Source of the DNA: a virus
DNA: 34,694 nucleotides
Direction: 5' to 3' (one strand)
Virus record (IMG/VR): IMGVR_UViG_3300043431_000259
Span: 1-34,694 of that record
Below the pieces are notes generated by a model. The model ran no database searches. It saw only the letters and a list, made by a program, of their open reading frames with translations, and was not told the DNA's origin. This document shows, piece by piece, positions 1 to 34,694 of the stretch (its first letter is position 1; each line of letters starts with the position of its first letter). The translations under genes and the position numbers were made by a program.

Positions 1-254
1 GGGTATCGTGCCGAGGCGGATGCCGCCGGTGCCATCGACAGGGACGATGATTTTCTCCCGGCTCACGAGCGTCGTGCCGTTGAGCCCGAGCAGCCAGACG
101 GTGGCGCCGTAGTTGCTGTAGATGCTCCCGTAGGCGCTCATCTCGACGATGGTGCCCAGGTCGGTGCTGTCGAAAGTCGCCCACGCGATGTTCTGCCCCG
201 CCGTGCCCAGAGGGACGCCTTCGGTCCCTTCGATCGCGCCGATGCGCTCGTCCG
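1..254. repeat. Terminal direct repeat, left copy
   Basis: These bases recur at 34441-34694 with a single difference: C at 127 against T at 34567. The repeat is the overlap of a circular assembly, or a circularly permuted, terminally redundant molecule, because the large tail gene reads in frame through it with an offset of exactly 34,440. The mismatch changes a glycine codon from GGG to GGA and is silent. This suggests two strain variants were read into the two ends rather than random error, but one sequencing error cannot be excluded. Confidence 0.95.
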
Positions 255-1236
255 ATTTCACAACGGGCAGATGCGTGTAGGTTATGAGCGTCTCGCTTGC
301 CGGCTGTTGCACGCGCGTGGTCGTGCGCGTGATGGTGTTGATCGTCGCGGTGCCGGTCTCGCAAAAGACCGTGAGCTGCACCGGCCAGACATTCCCGAGA
401 TCGAGCGTGTGCAGCCGCGAGGATGCCCCGGCGGCGAGGTACACCATTTCGGTCTTGATCGTCGCGCCGGTGGTGATGTTGCGCGAGGACACCCGCAGCC
501 GCGCGGCGACGGCCCCGGGGTTGGTGAAGGAAACCACGACCGAATCCTCGACGATCGTTCCGGCCCCGGCGCCCGTCCACGCCACCCAATACGATTCCCC
601 GGTCGTGAGCGTCTTCGCAAGCGTGCCCCCGAGCAGGGCAATGTCCGTGCCGTGCCCATCGTCCGTGCACAGGTCGGGGGGCGTGACGACATCCTCGGTC
701 CCGGCACTCGACAAGTTGCGCTGCCGGATGGCCGCCGGATCAACCGCAAAGGCGACGACCGCCTGCCCCGTCCAATCGGCGTGCGCGTCCCCGGCCTGCC
801 CGGTGTAGGCGGTGTAGGTTCCCGGCTCCTGCCTCACGCCATCGACAAAGACTGCCCCAATTGCATCCACCGGCTGATCCGACACCAGATAGACATACTC
901 GGAGCGCACCTCGTAGACCGTGCGCCCTGCAGGGTGCGGCTCGGCATCGGCCGCGCGGGTGATCGAGGAGAGCGTATTGCCGCTGATGGCCCCGACCGTC
1001 ATCGGCTCCCCGCCGATCTGGATCGCGAAAGGAGCGGCGGGGAACACCGACCCGTCGTCAACCGTGATGCTGGTTGCCGCCGCACTCATGACCGCCGCAA
1101 GCCGCGCCGTCTGGCCGGCGACAATGGCCGGGATGCGCACGTCCTCGACGCTGCCGTAGCCGCGACGGGCAACCGTGCCGATCTCTGCCGGGTCGATGCC
1201 TGGATAGTCCGCGCGAGAGAGCGTGAGCAGCGGCAT
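1..1236 (-). CDS. Tail-tip/baseplate hub-like protein, N-terminal part (continues at 34440)
   Basis: The ATG at 1236 lies 6 bp after the stop of the preceding tail gene and opens a frame that runs off the left edge. The same frame resumes at 34440 and stops at 33508, giving one 722-residue protein across the circular junction. This part is the first 412 codons. It is rich in small beta-type segments and has no signal peptide or membrane segment. Its place after the tape measure and two or three small distal-tail genes, and before the lysis genes, is where siphoviruses keep the hub or central tip protein. That role is inferred from position and size; I do not recognise a specific family. The 254-bp repeat falls inside it. 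Confidence 0.8.
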   Translation of the reverse strand, partial: MPLLTLSRADYPGIDPAEIGTVARRGYGSVEDVRIPAIVAGQTARLAAVMSAAATSITVDDGSVFPAAPFAIQIGGEPMTVGAISGNTLSSITRAADAEPHPAGRTVYEVRSEYVYLVSDQPVDAIGAVFVDGVRQEPGTYTAYTGQAGDAHADWTGQAVVAFAVDPAAIRQRNLSSAGTEDVVTPPDLCTDDGHGTDIALLGGTLAKTLTTGESYWVAWTGAGAGTIVEDSVVVSFTNPGAVAARLRVSSRNITTGATIKTEMVYLAAGASSRLHTLDLGNVWPVQLTVFCETGTATINTITRTTTRVQQPASETLITYTHLPVVKSDERIGAIEGTEGVPLGTAGQNIAWATFDSTDLGTIVEMSAYGSIYSNYGATVWLLGLNGTTLVSREKIIVPVDGTGGIRLGTIP

Positions 1237-5338: not shown

Positions 5339-6616
5339 CTAGTTCCCCGCCTGCAGCGGGTTGCCGCAGAACGTGTTGACCACCTTGAGCTGCACCGGCT
5401 TGGTCGCCGTCATCCCGGTGGGCGCGGCGGCCGGCTGCATGCACTCGAACTCCAGCTGGTGATCGAGGATCCCGTCCTTGATCGGCGCCTCGGCCAGCGT
5501 GTAGCGCATCAGCGGGATTTCGAAGAACATCGTCCGGTACGAGGCCCCCGAGATCAGCGGCCCGGTGATGGTGATGTCCATCTTCGCCGTGGTCCCCGCC
5601 TCCCACGCGGTCAGGTGCGTGGCGGCCTCGAAGCGCGGCAGGGTGCCCTTGAACGTGATGAGCGCCGGGCCGTCGTTGCTCGGCTCGTCGATCTCGTTGT
5701 CCGTGCTGCCGACCCCGTAGACGCCCTTGAGCGGGCGCTTGGCCGAGAGTTCCGCTTCGGAGAATCGCACGGCGTCCCCGGCGTCCAGCGCGTCGGCGAT
5801 CAGGTTCATGCGGCTGACCAGATGCGAGGTCATGGCGCGCGAGGAATCCAGCGCCGTCCAGGCGGTGACGGCCGTGTTCACCGCGGAGGCGAGGGTCTTG
5901 TCGTTGGCCAGCAGGTCGAGCACGATCTCGATGGGCTTGCCGGTGCCCCACTTGAGCGTGAAGCCGGTCACCTTGCAGCTGGTGAGCTCCTCCATGCTGA
6001 TGCCGTTCCAGACGCATGCGGTTCCGTAGATCCCTTCGAGCGTGTCCGCGAGGGTGTAGGTGCGCTCGGCGATCCCGGCCGAGAGGTTGCCCTGCGTGGT
6101 CGAGGAGGTCGCGAACGGGATGGCCCCCACCCACGTCAGCGTGTCGGCGGTGTTGCTCACGATGCGCCTGGTCTGCCCGACGTTGGTCGGGTTGCCGGCG
6201 TCCGCGTCACAGGTCCAGTACTTCCCGGCGTGCTCGTTGACGGTCCAGCTCGCGCCGGTCTTGAGCAGCGTCGTGGTGCTTCCCGCGCCGGTGCCGTCGG
6301 TGGCCACGGGGTCGGTGTACGTCGGGGTGGTGCTGGCGCCGAAGAAGGCCGCGAGCATCGCGTCGAACCCCTCGTAGCGCATGTACCCCTGCCAGTCGCC
6401 GGCGGCGGTGATTTCGCCCAGGTCGCCGGTGGTGGCGAATCCGCCCGTGCCGAGCGAATCGTCGGTCAGAAACGGCCGGGTCTTCTTGAACCCGAGCGGG
6501 CGGTGAAGCACCTGATCCCGGGCGCCGACGGGGATCGCCGTGCCCCACGGGTAGGTGGCAATCGGGAGCGCCATGCGAAACGCGAACTTGGTATCTACTC
6601 CTGCGGGTCTGACCAT
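5339..6616 (-). CDS. Major tail tube protein
   Basis: A 425-residue protein just before the tail chaperone. The central pattern GDWQGYMRYEGFDAMLAAFF and the beta-rich body around it fit the long tail tube family found in siphoviruses. It has no signal peptide, unlike the six genes upstream of it. An AAGGAG site stands 8 bases before the ATG. Its leader (6625-6679) is shared with the major capsid gene, consistent with very high expression of both. Confidence 0.85.
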   Translation of the reverse strand: MVRPAGVDTKFAFRMALPIATYPWGTAIPVGARDQVLHRPLGFKKTRPFLTDDSLGTGGFATTGDLGEITAAGDWQGYMRYEGFDAMLAAFFGASTTPTYTDPVATDGTGAGSTTTLLKTGASWTVNEHAGKYWTCDADAGNPTNVGQTRRIVSNTADTLTWVGAIPFATSSTTQGNLSAGIAERTYTLADTLEGIYGTACVWNGISMEELTSCKVTGFTLKWGTGKPIEIVLDLLANDKTLASAVNTAVTAWTALDSSRAMTSHLVSRMNLIADALDAGDAVRFSEAELSAKRPLKGVYGVGSTDNEIDEPSNDGPALITFKGTLPRFEAATHLTAWEAGTTAKMDITITGPLISGASYRTMFFEIPLMRYTLAEAPIKDGILDHQLEFECMQPAAAPTGMTATKPVQLKVVNTFCGNPLQAGN

Positions 6617-6686: not shown

Positions 6687-8936
6687 TTACTTCCTCAGAT
6701 CCTCGATTATGTTCAGCGTCCCCGATTCTGCTGTGGACGGGTTTGCCTCCGTGGTCGTATCGCGTACCTCGATCTCGTAGAGGTATTGCCCCGCCGTCGC
6801 GGTTTCGGCGGCGGTCAGCGTGATCGTGCAGGTGCGATTCGGGACGCTCGTGATGGTCATCGCGCGGTTGACGATGGCGGTCGTGTTCGCGTCGGCCTTG
6901 CGCTTCTGGCCGATGAAGTAGACCGTGCGGCCCGTCAGCGGGAAGTCGGCCCCGAGCGTCGTGCTGATCGTGTAGACATCGCCGCGGGGGACGTTGATGA
7001 TCCCGTCGCGGTTGACGAGCGGGTAGGTCGTCCCCCAGGTGACGCCGAATTGCGCCAGCACGGTGGCCTCTGCGGCCCTGGTGACCAGCGCGGCCCCGGC
7101 AGTCCCGTCGGCGTAGCTGCCCGGCAGCGGGGTGCTCCACGGGTCCCCTGCGCTACCAGCACCCGCGAGCGCAGCCCCGGCCGACCCGACACCAGCATGG
7201 CTTGCCAACGTCTCATCCCAGACCGCGTCCGCGATCTCCCCGGCGGTTGCGCCGCCCCCGCCTGCAGGCGCATTGACCAGCGCCGCCGCCGTGAACTCTG
7301 CGCCAGCGCCAGATGTCGTCGGCGCGGTGCGAGCGGTGAACTCCGCGACAGTTGGAATATCCGCGATGGCGGCGGTGTGGTCGGCGCTCTGCACCGTCCC
7401 CAGATCCGACACGATGGTGTAGTCAGCAGCGACGAGCGACCGTGCGTTGAACTCGGATACCGTGGGAACAGCGTCAACCGCCGCCGGGATCGTTGTGCCG
7501 AGCATGAGCCCTGTCGTCCCGGCCGTGGAGTGCCCCGTGAGGGCTTCGTCCCAGATCGCGTCTGCCAGCACCGAGGGGTCAACCCCACCCGAGGATGCCG
7601 TCGCCAGCGCAAGGCCAGCCGTGCCGGCGGCAGAGTGCCCGGAAAGCGCCTCGTCCCATACCGCGTCAGCCACGGTCGCAGCCGAGGGCGCGGAAGCGGC
7701 GTCAAGGATCAGGTCGAGCCGCCCGCCGTTGGCCCAATCGGTTTGCAGCACGTCGGTGTCAGCAAGAACATCCTCAACCGCCTGCCCGTAGGTGCCAGCC
7801 CCACCGTAGGATGCAACAGCGGCATTCAGCACCATCGCGGCTATTTCGGCGTCAACGTCAGCGGCGAAGGTCGCGGCGTCGATCGCCCCAGCCGCAACCG
7901 CCGCCGCGTTAATCGCCCCCGCCGCAAACGATCCCGCGACAATCGCCCCGGTGTGAACCACGCCGACCTCGACATCCCCAAGCGGCAGGATGCTGTACTT
8001 GCTGGCCCCGTTGGGCTGTGTTGCCCATGCTTCGGTGAGGGTTGCGACTTTGGTCGCCCCGACATAGCTGGAGATGATCCGCGACTGACCCGCCCCCGTG
8101 CCGGTGAGAATCTGCACGATTGCGCCGTCGTAGTAGTTGTTCGTCGCCGCCGCGTCCCCATCGAGCGTGATGGTGGACGCCCCTACCCCCGCGACTGTGC
8201 CGTGCGCCAGCGGGTGGAACATCAGCCCGTAGGTGTCGTCGGTGGCGTGCCCGGTGTAAGGTTCGTCCCAGACGCCATCCGCGATAGTAGCGGGGGTCAG
8301 GCCGGTTACGCTGCCAACCGCTCCCGTGACAGACCCCACGGCCCCCGTCACGCTGCCGACGCTGCCAGAGAGGTTGCCAGTGATGTTGGCGGTCTGGTTT
8401 CCAAGGCCCGTGGTCGCGGTCAGGGTGTAGCCCGTCTTGCTGGCGGCTGCGACCACCACCCCGTCCGTGCCGGTGTCCGCGAGGATGTCCGCAACCTCGG
8501 TGTCAATGAAGTTGTCCAGCGTCACCAAATCGGCGGCGATGGACGCCCCCGCAGGAGCGCCAAGGCGGGCGTAGGCGTCCCCGGTCTGCGGCTCGGTCGT
8601 GACGTAGGTCTGCAGCACAGGCACGGCTCCAGCGTTGAGCCAGAGCAGTTTCACCGTGTCGTTGTTCGTGGCGGTCTGCGATGGGGATATGCACCACACC
8701 CCGTTCGCGGAATGCGTAGCCGTGCCGTCGCTGGTCTGGGTCGTGCCGGTCGGGTGATAATAGACGGTGGTCGTGCCGCTGGTGTGCGCGGCCCCCGCCG
8801 TCGTGAGCAGCAGGGCGCAGACTTGTTCCTGCGAGGCGACATTCTTTCGCAACCCCCACGCGGGCAGGGTCGCGAGGGTGAACAGGGCGAGAAGTGCAAG
8901 AGTGCCGACCCACGGGACGCGCTGGCGTGTGCTCAT
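6687..8936 (-). CDS. Large repeat protein with N-terminal signal/anchor and BppU-like C-terminal domain
   Basis: A 749-residue, alanine-, glycine- and threonine-rich protein. Residues 8-28 form a hydrophobic signal peptide or anchor. A short repeat GSVTGAV runs near 194-212. The motif WDE-x4-5-H, usually followed by a Gly/Ala-rich tail, recurs near residues 223, 427, 462 and 573; this motif is familiar from phage tail and fibre proteins. Residues about 330-360 are Ala-rich AGAI-type repeats. The C-terminus (about 650-735) resembles the Ig-like N-terminal domain of baseplate upper proteins (BppU). It looks like a virion adsorption protein, yet the N-terminus would send it to the membrane or periplasm. 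The start overlaps the previous stop. Confidence 0.8.
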   Translation of the reverse strand: MSTRQRVPWVGTLALLALFTLATLPAWGLRKNVASQEQVCALLLTTAGAAHTSGTTTVYYHPTGTTQTSDGTATHSANGVWCISPSQTATNNDTVKLLWLNAGAVPVLQTYVTTEPQTGDAYARLGAPAGASIAADLVTLDNFIDTEVADILADTGTDGVVVAAASKTGYTLTATTGLGNQTANITGNLSGSVGSVTGAVGSVTGAVGSVTGLTPATIADGVWDEPYTGHATDDTYGLMFHPLAHGTVAGVGASTITLDGDAAATNNYYDGAIVQILTGTGAGQSRIISSYVGATKVATLTEAWATQPNGASKYSILPLGDVEVGVVHTGAIVAGSFAAGAINAAAVAAGAIDAATFAADVDAEIAAMVLNAAVASYGGAGTYGQAVEDVLADTDVLQTDWANGGRLDLILDAASAPSAATVADAVWDEALSGHSAAGTAGLALATASSGGVDPSVLADAIWDEALTGHSTAGTTGLMLGTTIPAAVDAVPTVSEFNARSLVAADYTIVSDLGTVQSADHTAAIADIPTVAEFTARTAPTTSGAGAEFTAAALVNAPAGGGGATAGEIADAVWDETLASHAGVGSAGAALAGAGSAGDPWSTPLPGSYADGTAGAALVTRAAEATVLAQFGVTWGTTYPLVNRDGIINVPRGDVYTISTTLGADFPLTGRTVYFIGQKRKADANTTAIVNRAMTITSVPNRTCTITLTAAETATAGQYLYEIEVRDTTTEANPSTAESGTLNIIEDLRK

Positions 8937-9943
8937 TGAATCACCTCGTTGGATTGAATCCAGATGCTCGGGGCGACGGCGGGTGCGCCCGCTTCGGGGT
9001 ACTCGTCAAAGCCGATGTCCCAGGTGCCGCCCGTGCGATCCTCGCCGTCGATGTCATCAGTGGGCATGCTCGTGCTGGTGCCGTAGTCCCGCGCCTCGGC
9101 ATCGTTGGACGCGAGGTGAAAGTCGTTGCCAGCGGCGTTGACGAACGCGAACGTCTGCGAAACACGGTTGCCGGTGCCACCATTGTCGTCGGCGGTCGCG
9201 TCGGTGGAGGCGTTGTAGTTGGCTGTCATCGTGCCGAGGAAATCGAAATAGGTCACGCCGTCACCGTTGCTGTACGCGAGGCAGTTGGTGGCCGTAACAG
9301 TTCCCGAGGTTACGCGACCAAACCCGTTGCGGGCGCATTCGGCTGCGGTGCAGTTTTTAAACGCCACGGTGGCGGCTGAGATTTCAAACCCCGCCCGCCC
9401 GCACCTGTATGCCAGCGTATTCTGAACCACAAGCCCGTTCGCGGAAGAGCTGTCCGTGGACAACCCGTTCCGACCCGTCCCTTTTACTAGGCACTTGTCT
9501 ATCAATACGTTGCCGCCGCTGACGTACACTCCATGACTTCCCGTCGATACCACATGCAGCCCCGTCACCCGCGTGTAAGCCCCGGCAATCGTCAGTAGCG
9601 GCGACCCGCTGCCCGAGAGCAGATACCCGCCCGCGTTCGGCGTGCCGTCGTGCCGCTCGGCCACGGGTACGACGATGTTGATGTAGTAGTCCGCGCTCGT
9701 GGTGTAGCCGGTTCCGGTCGTCGCGGTCGTCGTGTCGGTGAACTCGTAGCACTCGATGGTCAGCAGTCGCGCGGCGGTCACAAGATCAGCCGACTCCCCG
9801 GCCAACGCAGCGTTCAGCGTGGGATAGTCCCCGCCGCTACTCCTGACCGTCACCGTGCAGGGGCCAGTGCCCGTGCAGACAATCGCCGCGACCGGCGCGG
9901 GAAACAGCGCCAGCAGCGCGACGACGACCAGAGCGCGAAGCAT
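8933..9943 (-). CDS. Secreted right-handed beta-helix protein
   Basis: A 336-residue protein. The ATG at 9943 shares a base with the stop of the FN3 gene. Residues 1-18 are a Sec-type signal peptide with an AXA-like end (PVAA). From about residue 90 the protein shows beta-helix coils: repeated short strands with G, N and V ladders. The C-terminus (DYGTSTSMPTDDIDGEDR, then GTWDIGFDEYPEAG) matches the end of choice-of-anchor type parallel beta-helix proteins. Such domains bind or cut polysaccharide. No catalytic residues can be assigned. Either a host-glycan depolymerase or adhesin, or an exported surface protein. Confidence 0.8.
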   Translation of the reverse strand: MLRALVVVALLALFPAPVAAIVCTGTGPCTVTVRSSGGDYPTLNAALAGESADLVTAARLLTIECYEFTDTTTATTGTGYTTSADYYINIVVPVAERHDGTPNAGGYLLSGSGSPLLTIAGAYTRVTGLHVVSTGSHGVYVSGGNVLIDKCLVKGTGRNGLSTDSSSANGLVVQNTLAYRCGRAGFEISAATVAFKNCTAAECARNGFGRVTSGTVTATNCLAYSNGDGVTYFDFLGTMTANYNASTDATADDNGGTGNRVSQTFAFVNAAGNDFHLASNDAEARDYGTSTSMPTDDIDGEDRTGGTWDIGFDEYPEAGAPAVAPSIWIQSNEVIQ

Positions 9944-10320
9944 CACTCCACCCGCACCGTCACGGTAACGCGCACGCTCTGCGGGGCAGCGGGGGCGGTG
10001 GCATCGCTCGTACTGCACACCTCGTTGCTATACCCGCTCTCGTTGCCGATGGTGTCTCGTGCCGTGAGAACCCAGCAGCGCAGCCCGTCAGGCAGGCCGG
10101 GGACGGCGGTCGTGGTCACAAGGCCGAGCGTCTGAATCGCGGTGTACGGGCCACCAGCCGCAGGGCTTTCGTAGAGGCGATAGCCCGCAAGGTCAGGCTC
10201 GGTGTTCGCGTCCCATGCGAGGGTGACGGTGGTGGTCGCCGCCTCGGCTACGATCACCCAGCAGCATAGCGCGGCGACGATGGCGAAACAGAGGATTGCG
10301 ATGTTGCGATAGCGGGTCAT
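9943..10320 (-). CDS. Small secreted fibronectin type III domain protein
   Basis: A 125-residue protein with an N-terminal signal peptide (hydrophobic residues 7-24, AEA end) and one FN3 domain. The FN3 signature is clear: TVTLAWDANTEPDLAGYRLY in the first strands, then a CWVLTARDTIGNESGYSNEV stretch in the last strands. FN3 modules on phages usually sit on tail or capsid surfaces and may bind carbohydrate. Here the signal peptide suggests export instead. It ends in a short Thr/Val/Arg tail. The gene is directly followed by the beta-helix gene. Confidence 0.82.
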   Translation of the reverse strand: MTRYRNIAILCFAIVAALCCWVIVAEAATTTVTLAWDANTEPDLAGYRLYESPAAGGPYTAIQTLGLVTTTAVPGLPDGLRCWVLTARDTIGNESGYSNEVCSTSDATAPAAPQSVRVTVTVRVE

Positions 10321-10324
10321 GCCG

Positions 10325-10669
10325 TTAGTCCGCGTTCTCGTCCAGCGCCCTGACCTTCCACGCCCGCCGCGCCTTGCGGTAGAGGTTCGTGGTCGTGGTC
10401 GGGTTGATGTTGTACGGAGCGGCGAGGTAGACGGGATCGTCCGTGCGGAACTGGAGTGTCTCCTGCTGCCTTGCGCCCCCGGCAGAGTCCAGCACGGTGC
10501 CGGTGGTCGTGACCATGAACACGCAGTCGCCCGTGGTGCCGCAGAGTCCGATGGGTTCCAGGCTCACAGTGACGTTGCTGTACCCGTTGAGCGTGATGAC
10601 AATGGCGGCAGAGGCTGCGCCAGCGGCGAAGATCAGCAGTGCGGCGATGATGGCGAAGTAGCGTTTCAT
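10325..10669 (-). CDS. Small exported protein of unknown function
   Basis: A protein of 114 residues if it starts at the ATG at 10669, which has AAGGAGG 7 bases upstream; an ATG at 10675 is too close to that site. Residues 1-20 form a signal peptide ending ASA. The mature part is beta-like and has two cysteines (GLCGTTGDC) that could form a disulphide bond. It lies 5 bp from the FN3 gene and 12 bp from the large fibre-like gene. No family is recognised. Confidence 0.75.
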   Translation of the reverse strand: MKRYFAIIAALLIFAAGAASAAIVITLNGYSNVTVSLEPIGLCGTTGDCVFMVTTTGTVLDSAGGARQQETLQFRTDDPVYLAAPYNINPTTTTNLYRKARRAWKVRALDENAD

Positions 10670-10681
10670 TTTCATGCCTCC

Positions 10682-12118
10682 TTAGTTAGCCGAGCGCGAC
10701 ACTTCGCGCCATGTGGTGGTGTTGCCGTAGCGCAGCGTTATGCAGTCGTCCACATTCGATGCAAACGCTCCTGCAAGCTGAGTCACGCCCGCTGTGTCCG
10801 CGAAGTTCACCGCGCCCGCCGTCACGCTCACGATACAGATCGTCACGGCTGATCCGACCGACATTCCCGTCTCGGCCATCGTTACGTCACAACCTTGAGC
10901 GTCGGCGCTGGCGACTTCGATGTAGGATGAGGTCGGAGTGATAGTGACAGCGGCATTCGTGCCAGCGGCATCGTCGGCGCAGGTCACGGCCTGCGCGTAT
11001 GACGTGATTAAGCCGCCACGAGATACCTTGAACTTCTCGACCTCGGTTGTGTAATCGTTTGCAGTGGTGGACAGCACCATGAGATTCTGCGCACCGCTGC
11101 CGCCACCGCCCGCTGTAGTCTGCTCTGCTACTTGGAGGTGGATTCCATTATACCCAGCGGTAGATGTCTGAAGCATTTCCCCGCGAAGATTGAGAATATC
11201 CTGGATGATGCTTGAGCCGGTGTATTCGTAACTTGTAGTATCGGCGTATGCTCCGAGTTTGAATCCAAATGAATTTGAGTTCGTAAGGTCGCCCGTCAGC
11301 CCTATGGTAAGCGGCGGCGCGGACACAGACGTGTACCACCATGCGCCACCTGATTGGTTAAGGGTAGAAAAGTACGGTGTAGACAAATTCCCCAAAGTGT
11401 TCACAACAAACACGTCTACCCCACCCGCCCTCCCCACAATCAGACTCTCTGAACCCGCCCCCGCCGTGCCAACGTAATTCAGCCCCAAGATTACTTTGTT
11501 ACCCGCTGCGCCGGTCTGGTTGCCGGTGACGTTGAGTGCGGTTTCGTTTGCGGTGGCGTTGGCGAGGTCTTTGTAGATGGAGACGGGGCCGGAGGCGGGG
11601 GTGATGGTCGAAGTCACAGCCTTAAGGCTCACATCGTCAATGTCAGCCCGAAGCCCCGTAACCGGCGTGAACGTAAGCGTAGCCGTCGAGACTGCCGGGG
11701 GCGCGTACATGCAGAACGTGCCGTCTGCGGCGGGGAGCGTACTCGCCTGAAACGTATTGCCGCCGAACGCGATGGCCGTGCCTGCGACGGACCACGCTGA
11801 GACGGTGTAGCAGAATTTATAGACCGTGCCGATTTCTGCCACGAGCGCGACGGCGGGAACGAGTGTTCCGGTTCCGGCGGTGTGCTGCATCTTTGCGGAT
11901 GCGATAGCCCAACCAGCGCCTTCGGTCCAGTTCGCGGAGTCGGTGAAGCCGCCGTCTACGACGAGTTCCGGCCCGAGGGTTTCGCTGATGACGCCGGAGG
12001 AGGAGATGAGGGAGCCTGCGTCCACGCTCACCCCGGCGAGAGCAGGCGCGGCGAACGCAAGGGCAGCGGCGAGCACGAGCGCGGCGAGGAGTCGGGAGCG
12101 GCGAAGGATGGCGGTCAT
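10682..12118 (-). CDS. Secreted lectin-like / fibre-like protein
   Basis: A 478-residue protein with a textbook Sec signal (arginines, then an Ala/Leu core, ending PALA at about residue 28). Residues about 45-170 look like a carbohydrate-binding module: VVDGGFTDSANWTEGAGW, a beta-sandwich pattern and a closing DIDDVSLKA. The middle is beta-rich and fibre-like. The last 60 residues (VTICIVSV to TTWREVSRSAN) resemble the C-terminus of the protein at 13846-14334. Bases about 11.1-11.5 kb are AT-richer than the rest of the window, which suggests recent acquisition. Start chosen because it begins the signal peptide and follows the previous stop by 11 bp. Confidence 0.8.
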   Translation of the reverse strand: MTAILRRSRLLAALVLAAALAFAAPALAGVSVDAGSLISSSGVISETLGPELVVDGGFTDSANWTEGAGWAIASAKMQHTAGTGTLVPAVALVAEIGTVYKFCYTVSAWSVAGTAIAFGGNTFQASTLPAADGTFCMYAPPAVSTATLTFTPVTGLRADIDDVSLKAVTSTITPASGPVSIYKDLANATANETALNVTGNQTGAAGNKVILGLNYVGTAGAGSESLIVGRAGGVDVFVVNTLGNLSTPYFSTLNQSGGAWWYTSVSAPPLTIGLTGDLTNSNSFGFKLGAYADTTSYEYTGSSIIQDILNLRGEMLQTSTAGYNGIHLQVAEQTTAGGGGSGAQNLMVLSTTANDYTTEVEKFKVSRGGLITSYAQAVTCADDAAGTNAAVTITPTSSYIEVASADAQGCDVTMAETGMSVGSAVTICIVSVTAGAVNFADTAGVTQLAGAFASNVDDCITLRYGNTTTWREVSRSAN

Positions 12119-12129
12119 CGCGTCACCGC

Positions 12130-12498
12130 TCACTGCCGCGCCACGGCGTAGAGGGACACCGTGCTGGTTTCCGCCGCCGAGCAGATGATGCCGACGATGG
12201 CCGAGCGGGAGCCGGTCGTCGCGACCGTGGCGAACTCGATCTCGTCGAAGCAGACCGTCACCCCGGGGCCGATCTCGTTGACCCCGGCCGTGGCGACGGC
12301 AGCCACTCCGAAGGCGTAGAAGACTTCGTTGGCCCCGGAGTTCGCGATACACACGCTGCGCACGTCGGCCGCGAAGTCGGTTGTGGTGTTCGTCGCTGTC
12401 GCCGCGACCTTGACGCCAGGTTGCGTCGTGCTGGTGGCGTGGGCGGGCGCGCAGATGGCCAGCGCCAACGCCAGCGAGAGGAGCAGATTCTTTTTCAT
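12130..12498 (-). CDS. Small exported protein of unknown function
   Basis: A 122-residue protein starting at the ATG at 12498, which has an AAGGGA site, rather than an upstream ATG without one. It has a clear signal peptide: MKKN, a Leu/Ala core, and an AHA cleavage site near residue 21. The mature part is Ala/Thr-rich with three cysteines (SVCIANSGAN, TVCFDEIEF, IICSAAE). It is the first gene of the run of six signal-peptide genes after the tail terminator. No family is recognised. Confidence 0.78.
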   Translation of the reverse strand: MKKNLLLSLALALAICAPAHATSTTQPGVKVAATATNTTTDFAADVRSVCIANSGANEVFYAFGVAAVATAGVNEIGPGVTVCFDEIEFATVATTGSRSAIVGIICSAAETSTVSLYAVARQ

Positions 12499-12524: not shown

Positions 12525-12977
12525 TCATGTCGGCCACTGGTATTCCTGATCCATCGCCACGGAAAATCCGAACGAATACACCTGCACCGTCGCGTCCGAT
12601 ATCTCCAGACGTGTCGCGCCGGGCTCCACCGGCTGCAGGTTCTCGGCGAGGCGGGCGTTGGTCAGTCGTTGCCTCACCGCCAGGATGAGCGCTTCTGATT
12701 GCTCGTTCAGATCAACGGCGCCGCGCAACGAGTGCACGAACACGCCGACCTCGAACTCGGGTGCCTCGTGGTAGTTCGGCCCGTCAATCAGCCCGGGGGG
12801 CGGCTCGCCGACGTAAGCCACCGTGAGCAAGTTAAACCGCGCAATGCGCCCCTCGATGGCGTCGGCGATCTGTCCGGCGTAGGGCTCGATTGCCTTGACG
12901 CCGGGGATTGGGGGATCCGCCTCGAGGGCGGCGATCGCCAGGGCTCGGATGTCGCCGAAGTGGCGCGCGTCGCTCAT
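12525..12977 (-). CDS. Tail terminator-like protein (Mu gp37 / DUF1834-like)
   Basis: A 150-residue cytosolic protein with a start overlapping the stop of the gene before it. Its opening (alternating helix, then an IADAIEGRIARF stretch) and its position after a virion morphogenesis protein match the Mu gp37-like family, which acts at the head-tail joint or tail end. It is the last typical head-tail gene before the secreted-protein run. Confidence 0.72.
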   Translation of the reverse strand: MSDARHFGDIRALAIAALEADPPIPGVKAIEPYAGQIADAIEGRIARFNLLTVAYVGEPPPGLIDGPNYHEAPEFEVGVFVHSLRGAVDLNEQSEALILAVRQRLTNARLAENLQPVEPGATRLEISDATVQVYSFGFSVAMDQEYQWPT

Positions 12978-13845: not shown

Positions 13846-14334
13846 TTAGTTGTTGCTCAAGAGTGCGGTGATCTGCCGCCAGGTGGTGCCATCGCAGCAG
13901 AACGTCACGGCGTCCATCGCTGTCACCGCGAGGTTCCCGGTGCCGACGTTGTCGGTCAGGGTGTTCTCGTCGATCGTGATCGTGTCCGTGTCGTCGGCGT
14001 TGAAGACCACCATGCAGCAGCCCGAGAGCGCGGCCGACGGAGCGGTGAAGCTGTTCGTGGTGTCGGTGGTGCGCGCCGCGGTGGCCGAGATAGCTTTCAC
14101 GCCCCCGCAGGCGTCGGCGGTGATGGTGCCGCCTGCGCCGATCACTTCGGTCGCGGGCGCGGTGGATGTCAGGTTCCCGGTCACGACGAGTGCGCCGGCA
14201 AAGGTGTAGTCGGCATTAAGAGTCGTCGGGAGCATGTTGCCCTGGACGGTGTAGTCGGAGGCGGCGTGGGCCGCGAGGGCCGTGAAGCCGCAAAGAGCGA
14301 GCGCGGCGACGAAGAGCTTGAGCGCCTTGAGCAT
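13846..14334 (-). CDS. Exported protein beside the capsid gene, with a domain shared with the 478-residue protein
   Basis: A protein of 162 residues if it starts at the ATG at 14334, which lies 8 bases after GGAG; an ATG at 14340 is the alternative. Residues 1-25 are a signal peptide ending AAHA. The C-terminus (VVFNADDTDTITIDENTLTD, then CCDGTTWRQITALLSNN) has the same layout as the end of the protein at 10682-12118. It sits where head decoration proteins are usually encoded, which makes the signal peptide surprising. Function not known. Confidence 0.78.
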   Translation of the reverse strand: MLKALKLFVAALALCGFTALAAHAASDYTVQGNMLPTTLNADYTFAGALVVTGNLTSTAPATEVIGAGGTITADACGGVKAISATAARTTDTTNSFTAPSAALSGCCMVVFNADDTDTITIDENTLTDNVGTGNLAVTAMDAVTFCCDGTTWRQITALLSNN

Positions 14335-14336
14335 GA

Positions 14337-14477
14337 TCATTTCTCCTTTTTCTCGTCCGCGCCCTTGTGCGGGGGCGGATCGTCAACCTTCGTGTGCGCC
14401 TTCGGGTCGAAGTCCCGCTCGTTGATCACGAGCGAGCCGTGAATCTTGTGCTTCACCTTGATCGTCGGTATTGCCAC
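14337..14477 (-). CDS. Small basic protein downstream of the capsid gene
   Basis: A 46-residue protein with GTG start and strong AAAGGAGG site. It is short, charged and helical at the end (KGADEKKEK), with a central RDFDPKAHTK. Small proteins of this type often follow phage capsid genes. Its stop overlaps the start of the exported protein. No family name can be given with confidence. Confidence 0.7.
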   Translation of the reverse strand: MAIPTIKVKHKIHGSLVINERDFDPKAHTKVDDPPPHKGADEKKEK

Positions 14478-14544: not shown

Positions 14545-15762
14545 TTACGCCCAGGGCGTCCTGATGATCCGGCCCGCGTAGCGCGGCACCGCCATGACCG
14601 CGCCCGCGTTGATGTCACAGGCCCAGTTGTTCTGAAGGTAGCCGCCGAAGTTGGTGACGCGGATGTCCAGGTTCAGCTCGGCATCGGAGACGTAGGACTC
14701 GACGTAGCCGGCGCCCTGCTCGGGCAGGCGGCGCGAGGCGGTGACCAGCGCCATCGGGTGCATTGCGAGTCCGCCGATCCCGTGGGTCGCGAGGAAGGTC
14801 AGGGCGGCGTCGTTGGGCAGCAGGGCCGGCAGCGGCGGGTAGACGTTCACGTCCTGCGCCGCGCCGTTTACCAGCGTGACATCCGCGAAGCTCTGCTCGC
14901 CGATCAGTCCCGTGCTCGCCACGGAGAGCTTGCCGACGATGCGGTGCTTCTGCGCACTGCCCGCGATCGTGAAGACAGCTCCCTTGACCACGGTTCCGGC
15001 GCCGGCGGCGGTCACCAGGGAGAGCACGTGCGCGTTGGCCGCGTGCTCGCCGTTGAGCTTCACGCCCGTCGCGGTGCCCACGGTGTGGTTGACGTTGGAG
15101 AAGTACGAGGACTCCTTGATCGTCCCGAAGCCGTGCATCGGGATGAGCTGGCCGGTGCGCAGGGCCTCCGCGCTGCCGACGTTCGAGAACCCGACGATCG
15201 CGGCGGTGTTGAGCAGGCTGCCGTAGACCGTGGAGTCGACCAGCATCACGCGCGAGCCGTCGTCCGGGGCGTAGCAGCCCTGAGCGCGGTCGCCGATCAT
15301 CGCGCGCCCACCGGTGATCACGGTCCCGTCGTTCGGCACCGCGTTGACCGCGCCGTAGTAGTTGAAGGTCGAGTTGATGATGTCCGGGAGCATGAGCGCC
15401 TGGAGCTTCTCGAACACGTTGGCGGCCATGATCCGCACCACCATCGGAATGTCGCCGGTCTTCATCGCCTGCGCCACGGTCTGGTTGTCCAGCTGGATCG
15501 CGTCGTCGACGTGATGCATCGGCACCAGGCCGGAGGTTTTCTTGAGCTTGCCGGTGGGCGGCGTCCCGGCGATCGCGATGGCGCGCGCCGAGGTCATCGG
15601 CTCGTAGAACTCGACCATCGCGCCGGCGTGCGGATCGGTGCCGCCGAGCTTCATCGCCGGCTGGCCGGCGTACCGGGTGATCGGATTGAGACCACGAAGC
15701 ACGCTCGCCACGGAGAGCGCGAGATACTTCGCCTGTACTTTGATGTCGCTGACGTCTGCCAT
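14545..15762 (-). CDS. Major capsid protein (P22 coat-like)
   Basis: A 405-residue protein directly after the scaffold gene. It contains GVKLNGEHAANAHVL and VVKGAVFTIAGS, reminiscent of the insertion domain of P22-type coat proteins. The HK97-fold body is inferred from size and position. The start follows a strong ribosome binding site and the shared hairpin leader at 15769-15827. An abundant product is expected. Confidence 0.8.
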   Translation of the reverse strand: MADVSDIKVQAKYLALSVASVLRGLNPITRYAGQPAMKLGGTDPHAGAMVEFYEPMTSARAIAIAGTPPTGKLKKTSGLVPMHHVDDAIQLDNQTVAQAMKTGDIPMVVRIMAANVFEKLQALMLPDIINSTFNYYGAVNAVPNDGTVITGGRAMIGDRAQGCYAPDDGSRVMLVDSTVYGSLLNTAAIVGFSNVGSAEALRTGQLIPMHGFGTIKESSYFSNVNHTVGTATGVKLNGEHAANAHVLSLVTAAGAGTVVKGAVFTIAGSAQKHRIVGKLSVASTGLIGEQSFADVTLVNGAAQDVNVYPPLPALLPNDAALTFLATHGIGGLAMHPMALVTASRRLPEQGAGYVESYVSDAELNLDIRVTNFGGYLQNNWACDINAGAVMAVPRYAGRIIRTPWA

Positions 15763-19026: not shown

Positions 19027-20462
19027 CCTTGGACTCCTACGGTCATCGGCTTCGGCCCGATCGTATTGGCGTACACCACGCCCTCGAGCTCGTCCGGGCT
19101 CATCCCCGTGCGCGCCTTGAACGCCTTCTTGGTCTCGACCTTCGGTCGCCCGTTGTTGTCGGGCTCGAATTGCAGCGCCATGAATTGCTCCCTCAGTCGC
19201 GCGAGCGTCTTCTCCTCGCCCTCGAAACAGGCGATCCGGTCCTTCATTCGATCGCGCACGGCCCAGAACTGCTCGGTGCGAAAATCAACGTACTTCTCGG
19301 GCTTGCGCGGCTTGTGCCTGGTGTCGACCTTGACCACCTGGTGCGGGGGGATGGGCGTGACGCCGTCGCGATCCAGGCGCGGCTTCGCGAGGTACTCGCC
19401 GTTGGGGGCGCCAAGGCCGCCGGCGTCGTAGCGGATCGGGAAGCGCCCGAACTTGCGCGTCACGTCGTCGACGAACCACCCGAGCTCCGGGCCGGTCGTG
19501 CGCGGGCGGCTGTGCACGGCGAAGCGGGGGCCGCGCTGGAAGGTCAGGCTCGCGTTGTCGGAGCCGGTGCCCGCAGGGTCGAGCCCGTAGCGCCCCGGCT
19601 CGCTCGTGTCGAAGGGCAGATCCAACTCGAACGCCAGATCCACGAGGGCCTGCGGGTACACGTAGTTGTCGCCCTCTTGCGTGAAGATCCAGAGCCCCTT
19701 GATGTACTTGAGCTTCCACGACTCGGGCATGTCGGCGAAGCGCTCGAAGTACCCGGGCGCCAGGCCGAAGTTGTTCGTCGGGTCGAAGTGCCAGCGCTGA
19801 TGATCGAACGGCATCGGCCCGCGGATGAACGTCGTGTGCACCCAGCCGGGCTCGGGGTTGCTGTCGCAGAAGCCGCGGTAACGCATCGCGGCCGGCGCGG
19901 TCCCGGGCGGAATGAAGCGCAGCGTCTGCTTCAGCGCGTCCCAGAAGACCTTGCGTGACTGCGAAGCCTCGTGCAGGTAGAACCCGCCCAGCTCGAGCGA
20001 TTTCAGTCCGTCGATGTAGTGCTGAATCGCGGGCTCACTCTGCAGGGTGTTGCCCGAGAGCCCGCTGTAGAGCAGCTCGCTCCCGTTCTGCATGATGTAT
20101 TTTCGATCCGTGGCCCGGTGCTCGCGGATGTAGTCCGGCGGACAGACGGCGAGGAACGACGGGATCGTGGTCTTGACCAGGTCATCGTACTTCTGCCGGA
20201 ACATCATGAACTTGTTGCCGCTGAATTCCATAAGCAGCCGGACGATCTCACCGCAGATCGCGCGGGTTTTCCCGCCGCCCTTGGGGCCTTCGCAAAGGTT
20301 GAACGTGAAGGGCGATGCGTGGAACGCGAGCCCGTCGAGGGTCGGGCGGTAGGTGTCGGCGAGGGAGTAGATCCGCGCGTTGGACGGGATCGCGGCGGCG
20401 TCAGCGACGGGCATGAGCGCCACCACCAGAGCGAGGACGACGAGCCGCGCGGCGCGCATCAT
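19023..20462 (-). CDS. terL: Large terminase subunit (packaging ATPase and nuclease)
   Basis: A protein of 479 residues counting from the first ATG. The ATPase Walker A is EGPKGGGKT near residues 58-66. The Walker B-type segment GGFYLHEASQ has His where Asp usually stands, with the catalytic Glu at 165. A coupling motif SNPEPG follows near 201-206. The nuclease domain has Asp at 295 (YGLDPAGTGSD) and Asp at 346 (RYDAGGLG). The first 24 residues look like a signal peptide (Arg-rich, then a Val/Leu/Ala core), unusual for a cytosolic motor. The ATG at codon 17 (20414) may be the true start. Confidence 0.88.
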   Translation of the reverse strand: MMRAARLVVLALVVALMPVADAAAIPSNARIYSLADTYRPTLDGLAFHASPFTFNLCEGPKGGGKTRAICGEIVRLLMEFSGNKFMMFRQKYDDLVKTTIPSFLAVCPPDYIREHRATDRKYIMQNGSELLYSGLSGNTLQSEPAIQHYIDGLKSLELGGFYLHEASQSRKVFWDALKQTLRFIPPGTAPAAMRYRGFCDSNPEPGWVHTTFIRGPMPFDHQRWHFDPTNNFGLAPGYFERFADMPESWKLKYIKGLWIFTQEGDNYVYPQALVDLAFELDLPFDTSEPGRYGLDPAGTGSDNASLTFQRGPRFAVHSRPRTTGPELGWFVDDVTRKFGRFPIRYDAGGLGAPNGEYLAKPRLDRDGVTPIPPHQVVKVDTRHKPRKPEKYVDFRTEQFWAVRDRMKDRIACFEGEEKTLARLREQFMALQFEPDNNGRPKVETKKAFKARTGMSPDELEGVVYANTIGPKPMTVGVQG

Positions 20463-31582: not shown

Positions 31583-32025
31583 TACCATGCACCTCCAAAT
31601 ATCCTGACTGCCCGGAACGCCACACGCGCCCTCCAGGGGCGCACCTTGTCGGCCAGCATCAGCCGGTAAAACAGTTCATCGGTCGTGCCCCGCTCGATCC
31701 GCATCCACGGCCATGCCCAGGCGCGATCCCTGTTGCTCGGGTCGCTCGGAGGCGGGTAGGAAATGTCCCCGTGCTGTCGGTAGATCGCATCGTGGATCAG
31801 CGGGGCCACGCACCCGAGATCGTCGCGGTTAACGATCCATGCCGGGATGATCTCGGGAATCGAGGCGCGGTTGTAGCGATACCCCGCCGGTACGGTAATC
31901 GAGCCGGGAGCGCCGTCGAGCGCCACGCGCACCTCGTAGTCCTCCATTACCGCCCACCACGGCGAACCGCCATCCTGGCGCACGTAGAGGCCCGGGAGCG
32001 GGTCGCTGACGATGACGACCTTCAT
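31582..32025 (-). CDS. DUF1353 family protein
   Basis: A 147-residue protein with DUF1353 hallmarks: VPAGYRYNRASIPEI, then CVAPLIHDAIYRQHG and DELFYRLMLADKV. The function of this family is unknown; in phages it sits near lysis genes. It overlaps the lipoprotein gene before it. Confidence 0.8.
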   Translation of the reverse strand: MKVVIVSDPLPGLYVRQDGGSPWWAVMEDYEVRVALDGAPGSITVPAGYRYNRASIPEIIPAWIVNRDDLGCVAPLIHDAIYRQHGDISYPPPSDPSNRDRAWAWPWMRIERGTTDELFYRLMLADKVRPWRARVAFRAVRIFGGAW

Positions 32026-32588
32026 GGCACGACCACCCGCCGAAGCTGCGACCGCTCCTTAACCGTCTCCGCCCCCGCCCGGGCGCACCCGCTCGCCAAG
32101 ACGTAGGCGACCGTGCCTGATCGTGGCCTGAAGGCGTTCAACGCCTCGCCGTGGAAGTTATCCGTGCCATCCCACCGCTTGCCGCCGAACGAGAGCTTGC
32201 CGCGCCCGAGCCACTCGGCCGTCGCGCAATGGATTCGCGCGTCTGTGTGCTCTGCGCAAAGCCACCAATTCCCGACAGTCGGCTTCTCGCCCCCGTCCTG
32301 GCGCACCGGCCACGCCTCTGTGCCTGTGAGCGATTCGACCTCGACGCCGTCGCCTGCCCAGCGGGGGGTCCCGAGGGTCGCGGTGCATGCCCACGCGCCG
32401 ACGTCCCCGGCGGGCTCGTCCCACACGATGCCGGCAGGGTCGATTTCGTCAGGGCAGACGGCGGTCACCGGCGGCGGCGCGGGCGGGCCCTGCTGCTCGT
32501 TCCACCAATCGGCGGCGCTCTGGAGCGTGGCGCAGCCGGCGAGAGTGGTCAGGGCAAGGACGGCGAGAAAGTGTCTTAGGTGTCTCAT
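32022..32588 (-). CDS. Lipoprotein in the lysis region
   Basis: A protein of 188 residues from the ATG at 32588, overlapping the stop before it. A signal with lipobox LAGC makes Cys 20 the lipid-bearing residue; a proline-rich stretch (GPPAPPPV) follows. The mature part has several further cysteines (AVCPDE, GAWACTA, WWLCAEH, IHCATAEW). It may be an outer-membrane lysis protein (o-spanin role) but is larger than usual. Confidence 0.68.
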   Translation of the reverse strand: MRHLRHFLAVLALTTLAGCATLQSAADWWNEQQGPPAPPPVTAVCPDEIDPAGIVWDEPAGDVGAWACTATLGTPRWAGDGVEVESLTGTEAWPVRQDGGEKPTVGNWWLCAEHTDARIHCATAEWLGRGKLSFGGKRWDGTDNFHGEALNAFRPRSGTVAYVLASGCARAGAETVKERSQLRRVVVP

Positions 32589-33507: not shown

Positions 33508-34694
33508 TTACGTCCACCATTCGCGCGCGGTGAAGGCGCACGTGAATTTGTTGGGCCGCTGTAGCCGTTCGATCCACCACGAGCGACCGGTGTAGATGTC
33601 GTCGGTGATCGTGATCGTCTGCCCGACCTGCAAATCCCCGTGCTGCCAGAACGTCGAAAAAGTCACGGTCAGCAGGGGCGTTGCCACCTCGAGCAGCAGA
33701 TGCGCCAGAACGTGCGCCGCCATCGTTGCAGAGCGCACGCATGGCAGGTTGTAGGTCGTCGCGTAGGTGCCGTACTTCGCGACACTGGCCGCACTGGTCG
33801 CCGCAGCCGATGCGAGGTAACCGCTAGACACCTCGCGGGCCGAGTTGCCGGAATAGTTTGGGGAGAACAGCGCCGTCAGGTCGTTGAAGACGCTGCGCAT
33901 CGAGTCCTTGGCGTAGACGTACCGCGAGCCCTCGCCGGCCAGATCGTCGCGCGTGAGCGTGCGCACCGCTGTCGGGGCGGCATCCGGCGTGTAGTGGTGG
34001 TAATACTTTCCACCCAGGAACCGCGTGGTCGAGCGCGAGCAAAAGCCGATAGTCTTAAGCGTATCGTGGTTGCTCTGCTGCGGAACGATGAACCCGAGCT
34101 TGTACCCGCCGGAGATCGCCGCGGCGTGCAGCGTCCCGGCAGCGGCGAACGAGGTGTCATCGATCTCGGCAAGGGTCGCGCCCAGGTAATTGACCAGGAA
34201 GTGCTTGATGACCCAATCCGGCCGTTCGATCAGGTTGCCGGCGCCACCGTACTCGCCGTCGGGGTCGTAGTGCCACGCCGCGCTCACACAGACGCGCTCG
34301 CCGATCGCCACGCGGGCGGTGGACTTGCCGCCCGAGTCGTTCGCGTTGTCAGCCAACACCGACACCCGCCGCTCGATGTATTCGAGGTTGGCGTCTCCCG
34401 ATTCCACGACAATGGCGAGATGGGTCGCCCACGTCCCGCCGGGTATCGTGCCGAGGCGGATGCCGCCGGTGCCATCGACAGGGACGATGATTTTCTCCCG
34501 GCTCACGAGCGTCGTGCCGTTGAGCCCGAGCAGCCAGACGGTGGCGCCGTAGTTGCTGTAGATGCTTCCGTAGGCGCTCATCTCGACGATGGTGCCCAGG
34601 TCGGTGCTGTCGAAAGTCGCCCACGCGATGTTCTGCCCCGCCGTGCCCAGAGGGACGCCTTCGGTCCCTTCGATCGCGCCGATGCGCTCGTCCG
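33508..34694 (-). CDS. Tail-tip/baseplate hub-like protein, C-terminal part (begins at 1236)
   Basis: The C-terminal 310 residues, read from 34440 to the stop at 33508, complete the 722-residue protein whose N-terminus is at 1236. An internal ATG at 34581 begins a shorter frame and is not the real start. Near the middle, PDWVIKHFLVNYLGA is a helix pattern found in tail-tip hub proteins, and the last part is beta-rich (VGQTITITDDIYTGRSWWIE). It is followed by the lysis genes. Confidence 0.8.
   Translation of the reverse strand, partial: DERIGAIEGTEGVPLGTAGQNIAWATFDSTDLGTIVEMSAYGSIYSNYGATVWLLGLNGTTLVSREKIIVPVDGTGGIRLGTIPGGTWATHLAIVVESGDANLEYIERRVSVLADNANDSGGKSTARVAIGERVCVSAAWHYDPDGEYGGAGNLIERPDWVIKHFLVNYLGATLAEIDDTSFAAAGTLHAAAISGGYKLGFIVPQQSNHDTLKTIGFCSRSTTRFLGGKYYHHYTPDAAPTAVRTLTRDDLAGEGSRYVYAKDSMRSVFNDLTALFSPNYSGNSAREVSSGYLASAAATSAASVAKYGTYATTYNLPCVRSATMAAHVLAHLLLEVATPLLTVTFSTFWQHGDLQVGQTITITDDIYTGRSWWIERLQRPNKFTCAFTAREWWT
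34441..34694. repeat. Terminal direct repeat, right copy
   Basis: This is the second copy of bases 1-254, with one silent difference at 34567. Joining the copies gives a circle of 34,440 bp. The repeat lies wholly inside the coding sequence of the 722-residue tail-tip protein, so it is not a specialised end such as a cos site. Confidence 0.95.

Follow-up and report, generated by a model that had tools for sequence, protein, structure and literature searches.

The phage record IMGVR_UViG_3300043431_000259 (called the window here, that is, the entire stretch of 34,694 bp that was analyzed) carries within its late virion operon a run of six genes whose products each begin with a predicted Sec-type signal peptide (SP). 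Together with a seventh such gene, which specifies a 164-residue protein, these six genes probably form a cassette for exported fiber-type proteins. Judging from the sequences, export of the products through the Sec system is highly probable; that they subsequently join virions is a much closer call, with the balance tipped slightly against it. An earlier note on this DNA had drawn attention to the six genes, and their coordinates, strand and lengths stand as first given (Table 1): all lie on the minus strand, tightly packed between the gene in the tail-terminator position and the tail tube gene. The note had also proposed that the cassette might be exported, and this proposal gains support from the run of SPs, from diverged SPs that precede conserved mature parts, from paired cysteines in the family of the 164-residue protein, from SP-bearing cellular relatives of the fibronectin type III (FN3) protein, and from the sharing of the SP trait at the level of whole cassettes.

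We scored SPs with a heuristic rather than with SignalP, looking for a charged n-region, an uncharged h-region and an A-x-A-like cleavage site, and scores of at least 7 were taken as high. All three elements are present within approximately 15-35 residues in each of the six proteins and in the 164-residue protein. The six score between 7.7 and 10.4, which bears out by this measure the claim that every one of them starts with an SP of the Sec/signal peptidase I (SPI) type; by comparison, 28 of 1429 genes (about 2%) reach a score of at least 7 at 80 viral loci that were not selected for SPs. Among the other head, neck and tail genes of the window, a high score is attained only by the 164-residue gene and by the N-terminus of the terminase, two features that the earlier note had not recorded. 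In phage lambda, used as a control, high scores go to Lom, Bor, Rz, RexB and a single small open reading frame, and to none of the virion genes.

Hydrophobic N-termini arising by chance in a GC-rich genome, or start codons called too far upstream, might mimic such signals. A passing SP pattern persists in 8-52% of cases when the first 45 residues of each protein are shuffled, 11 of the window's 162 non-gene open reading frames pass at a loose threshold (with one score above 9), and a clear Shine-Dalgarno sequence is missing at several of the six starts, though two of these starts overlap the stop codon of the preceding gene. Composition contributes to each single SP score, and the case rests on the run of six and on conservation. 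Six high scores in a row against a background of 2%, the conservation of the SP in relatives, and the sharing of the trait by adjacent genes (P = 5e-7, detailed below) make chance or misplaced starts a very improbable explanation, and for the 164-residue and FN3 families it is contradicted by their relatives.

The family of the 164-residue protein comprises 13 proteins from 13 phages, the window and 12 others retrieved in two scans. Its members vary in length from 134 to 1016 residues; all 13 carry an SP, and the common domain is C-terminal in every one. C78 and C108 are present in 13 of 13, with the limit that one of the search patterns demanded C78. Beyond these, C109 occurs together with C148 in four members and C113 together with C144 in five, neither pair is found in the remaining four, and a lone partner occurs in none (exact P = 0.0014 and 0.0008 for the pairings, relatedness ignored). 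Both pairs sum to 257, corresponding to one antiparallel register, and the AlphaFold2 (AF2) model of the protein (mean predicted local distance difference test, pLDDT, 64, better in this domain) has strands at residues 109-114 and 144-149. The alternative pairs would thus fit cross-strand disulfides, which suggests folding in an oxidizing compartment. We consider disulfide formation in this family likely, and less so for the other cassette proteins. The 164-residue protein scores 13.5 bits against PF25692 (Phage_depo_C) and its counterpart in the related phage L084 scores 23.1 bits, both below the cut-off of 25.

Phage L084 has a portal protein 74% identical to that of the window, the same order of head and neck genes, and shared scaffold, neck and SP genes. 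Its FN3 and 164-type genes hold the places they have in the window, the former after the gene in the terminator position and the latter directly behind that of the capsid; L084 also has extra small genes upstream of its terminase. Aligned with each other, the two FN3 proteins show little conservation across the SP region; good conservation sets in at the predicted cleavage site and extends through the mature part. The FN3 protein has relatives at 55 viral loci; approximately 26 of the 32 small full-length relatives in viral contigs bear an SP, often beside other SP genes, with runs of five consecutive SP genes in L092 and three in L097. FN3-domain relatives were also found in genome contigs, where most of those that could be called are SP-bearing and stem from Desulfobacterota, Nitrospirota and other phyla.

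The fiber and beta-helix proteins have relatives both with and without SPs. The N-terminal domain of the 749-residue fiber-type protein begins at residue 31, after the SP; this domain is common to 17 relatives without SP, in most of which it starts within the first 10 or so residues, and on the tree of the domain the SP label requires at least two changes. Beta-helix relatives without SP likewise start directly at the domain. On the beta-helix tree, a quick tree with long branches, an SP is present in 11 of 60 proteins, and the label requires eight changes, at least six of which are forced by supported branches. Of the genes that adjoin an SP-bearing beta-helix gene, 11 of 20 encode an SP themselves, as compared with 4 of 87 next to an SP-less one (P = 5e-7). 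Because adjacent genes share it, the SP trait is a property of the whole cassette and not of single genes, and all genes of a cassette seem to change together between the exported and the non-exported state. At loci L022 and L060, the beta-helix gene is found just upstream of the fiber gene and neither has an SP; in L022, this pair sits in the virion module, between head and tail genes. Since these families are made with or without SPs in similar gene neighborhoods, they would most simply act at the common end point of both routes, outside the cell, either on the particle or at cell surfaces.

The view that the cassette is foreign to the virion is not supported: SP-less beta-helix and fiber relatives are placed in virion modules of other phages in the same order, and the window has no other recognizable fiber-type gene besides the tail-tip gene. 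The latter point carries weight because the window ends in a perfect direct terminal repeat of 254 bp (1-254 = 34441-34694), which indicates a closed, complete genome of 34,440 bp and hence a complete gene list. The six genes (5.8 kb, 17% of the genome) and the 164-residue gene are the only recognizable fiber- or adhesin-type genes in it, the tail-tip gene aside. Among the roles suggested earlier, the evidence agrees best with export followed by attachment to the virion and next best with surface coating or exclusion; a glycan-degrading function has no support, and none of the six proteins yielded an enzyme domain.

We consider it most likely that the exported proteins attach to virions during lysis, at a confidence just short of even, because the families sit in virion modules, the fiber retains its N-terminal domain, and the genome offers few other candidates. 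The cassette genes would be co-expressed with the virion genes from the late operon; the Sec system would carry their products across the inner membrane, and after removal of the SPs these would fold, in part with disulfides, either on the surface or in the periplasm. The fiber- and adhesin-type proteins would then work outside the cell, and once the holin opens the inner membrane at lysis, matured fibers could meet and decorate the virions.

The same evidence for export would equally suit proteins that stay on the host envelope or its debris as a late coat or receptor mask and never enter the virion, so that progeny could no longer adsorb to the dying host, or other phages would be excluded, in the manner of Llp and Cor or of lambda Lom. 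Several observations make this nearly as probable as attachment to virions: genes for exclusion lipoproteins can adjoin a receptor-binding gene, as does llp of T5 (PMC9586334), the cellular FN3 relatives are mostly SP-bearing, and SP genes at other loci include ones with outer-membrane protein (OMP)-barrel, laminin-G, Kelch and fn3 domains. What tells against a mere coat is that the 749-residue fiber retains the very domain that leads its SP-less relatives, that those relatives are placed in virion modules, that the complete genome lacks another recognizable fiber gene apart from the tail tip, and that no lipobox with a Cys at +1 is apparent, by sequence, in any of the six proteins or in the 164-residue protein.

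Several points weigh against an exported fiber cassette. We know of no tailed phage that matures its fibers through Sec. The large terminase subunit of the window begins with a textbook-like SP (MMRAARLVVLALVVALMPVADAAA, 20400-20462, minus strand); its start codon overlaps the stop codon of the small subunit as ATGA, and its match to TIGR01547 begins at residue 55. The terminase of L084 is different, unmatched, and without an SP-like N-terminus. In L139, a protein of 245 residues that matches phrog_399 (head structural protein, 2.9e-13) at residues 38-223 is also SP-like, with a Shine-Dalgarno sequence at the SP start only. Fiber export leaves the N-termini of both the terminase and the L139 protein unexplained. 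Overall, Cys is only modestly enriched, at 1.51% against 0.75% within the window (P = 0.008) and at 1.09% against 0.84% over the loci, and it is not enriched in the beta-helix family, whose SP-bearing members hold fewer Cys residues. As a general test, Cys enrichment was set aside, being weak overall and failing in the beta-helix family, and strict pairing in the 164-residue family is the one strong signal; a Cys pair in the fiber domain (C40/C82) was likewise discarded as uninformative, being unique to the window. Finally, the virion role of the SP-less relatives is inferred from gene position.

The terminase and the L139 head protein, both cytoplasmic in action, also raise the possibility that the SPs are translated without serving export, the proteins remaining in the cytoplasm or uncleaved on the inner membrane and being assembled into virions there. 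The cleavage-site patterns, the conservation that sets in at the cleavage site, and the strict Cys pairing in the SP-bearing 164-residue family render this unlikely.

As to the individual proteins (Table 1), the FN3 and beta-helix domains named in the earlier note were recovered by profile, AF2 model and Foldseek, while its lectin-like domain was not, as the 478-residue protein lacks any Pfam, NCBIfam or PDB match; one weak relative of it was found. The FN3 fold of the 125-residue protein is modeled by AF2 with a pLDDT of 93 and is matched by FN3 domains of the PDB in Foldseek, though the single sequence gives no match to Pfam fn3; in the model, strands F and G hold C82 and C102, and a further family member has cysteines at both of these columns. 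The 336-residue protein clears the gathering score of Pfam Beta_helix (37.4 vs. 25.9 bits). A family search with the 122-residue protein gave no match above the cut-off; in L228 and L230, similar small SP proteins are encoded after the 164-type gene, with uncertain homology to the 122-residue protein. The C-terminal part of the 478-residue protein ends in TTTWREVSRSAN; its proposed homology to the domain of the 164-residue protein found no support in a profile comparison. The middle of this gene (10970-11550, minus strand) has a GC content of 53-55%, and its GC at third codon positions is below that of its ends and of all neighbors. This lower GC suggests that the middle segment was recently acquired.

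Table 1. Genes of the cassette and selected virion genes of the window.
Gene product	Coordinates	Strand	Features
122-residue protein	12130..12498	-	SP MKKNLLLSLALALAICAPAHA, then cleavage; domain of ~100 residues
478-residue protein	10682..12118	-	SP ...LAFAAPALA, then cleavage; N-terminal part related to phrog_30593 (1.9e-6); six mature Cys
114/116-residue protein	10325..10675	-	SP ..IFAAGAASA, then cleavage; two mature Cys (45, 51)
125-residue FN3 protein	9943..10320	-	SP ..WVIVAEA, then cleavage; one FN3 domain
336-residue right-handed beta-helix protein	8933..9943	-	SP MLRALVVVALLALFPAPVAA, then cleavage; PF13229 (2.4e-9)
749-residue fiber-type protein	6687..8936	-	SP ..LPAWG, then cleavage; N-terminal domain; AVWDE..H repeats
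164-residue protein, seventh member, behind capsid gene	13846..14340	-	SP and C-terminal beta-sandwich domain
Tail tube protein, downstream neighbor of the six	5339..6616	-	PF18906 (3.3e-13), phrog_290 (8.5e-15); no SP
Tail-terminator-position protein, upstream neighbor of the six	12525..12977	-	Adjoins phrog_26 neck gene; own PHROG match weak; no SP
Major capsid protein	14545..15762	-	phrog_283 (9.4e-23); no SP
Tail-tip protein, first part	1..1236	-	Continues 34440 down to 33508 across terminal repeat; ~722 residues; phrog_1101 (0.0015); no SP

The late region on the minus strand runs from the small and large terminase subunits through portal, minor head protein, scaffold and capsid to the 164-residue gene, and onward through neck genes, the terminator-position gene, the six cassette genes, the tail tube, the tail assembly chaperone and the gene in the tape-measure position to the tail-tip genes, one of which is split across the contig ends by the terminal repeat. 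The genome also encodes an integrase (phrog_1, 8e-56), RecE/RecT, RusA and primosomal genes. Near the endolysin gene, positions 32022-32588 (minus strand) encode a putative lipoprotein (LTTLAGC) that weakly resembles Rz-like spanins. Capsid and terminase had no relatives in the viral contigs, and the portal had none in genome contigs.

As the earlier note had suggested, we searched for such cassettes in other phages, and related cassettes recur in other uncultivated phages, in forms with and without SPs. Behind the capsid gene of L139 (9491-16656), seven consecutive genes bear an SP or a lipobox, the gene of the 245-residue phrog_399 protein among them; at least four consecutive SP genes, including ones for large fiber-like and beta-helix-like proteins, are present in the uncultivated phages L223 (11924-16009), L227 (1993-8309) and L092 (7285-12140). 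SP-bearing proteins of other loci match tail fiber or spike families as well as Kelch, laminin-G, fn3, beta-helix and OMP-barrel domains. In a tblastn search of 50,697 records of isolated phages, no match was obtained for the FN3 protein, the 478- and 336-residue proteins or the L142 member of the 164-residue family, and one partial match was obtained for the 749-residue fiber. We found no report of SP-bearing fiber cassettes in tailed phages in the literature that we searched, and the lack of tblastn matches in isolated phages for queries from the FN3, beta-helix and 164-residue families may be the reason why such cassettes have gone unreported.

The assembly of tailed phages is taught as a wholly cytoplasmic process. 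Virion proteins with Sec SPs that are processed before assembly are known as the coat proteins of filamentous phages; filamentous virions are extruded through the membrane, however, whereas the phage of the window is tailed, with genes for capsid, portal, terminase and tail tube. Lambda Lom resembles the cassette proteins in bearing an SP and in being encoded in the late operon beside tail-fiber genes, but is a single outer-membrane protein and neither a fiber nor an FN3 or beta-helix protein. PblA and PblB of the temperate streptococcal phage SM1 are tail proteins of the virion that also act as adhesins on the bacterial surface, which they reach through holin/lysin-dependent release followed by binding to the cell wall (PMC7600539); unlike these proteins, to which we liken the cassette only from their published description, each cassette protein has an SP of its own. 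Like the cassette proteins, Llp of T5 and Cor are phage-encoded and exported; these superinfection-exclusion lipoproteins block the receptor (PMC9586334), but each is a single small lipoprotein, whereas the late module here holds six or seven proteins of the SPI type, of which several are large and resemble fibers.

Collectively, our data suggest that some tailed phages may mature fiber proteins outside the cytoplasm. In its most general form, which we put forward tentatively and regard as somewhat doubtful, the proposal is that one set of uncultivated tailed phages produces Sec-exported, disulfide-folded periplasmic precursors of fibers (in one contig possibly of a head-neck protein) that would be added to otherwise complete virions at lysis, with whole cassettes switching between the Sec and the cytoplasmic route in the course of evolution. 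If fiber-type proteins leave the cytoplasm together, as one block, and yet serve the particle, this would amount to a late extracytoplasmic maturation step with access to disulfides. If they remain on the envelope instead, surface proteins expressed late in the infection cycle would take up about 17% of a 34-kb genome. The apparent switching at the level of the cassette makes this question testable by a comparison of sister phages.

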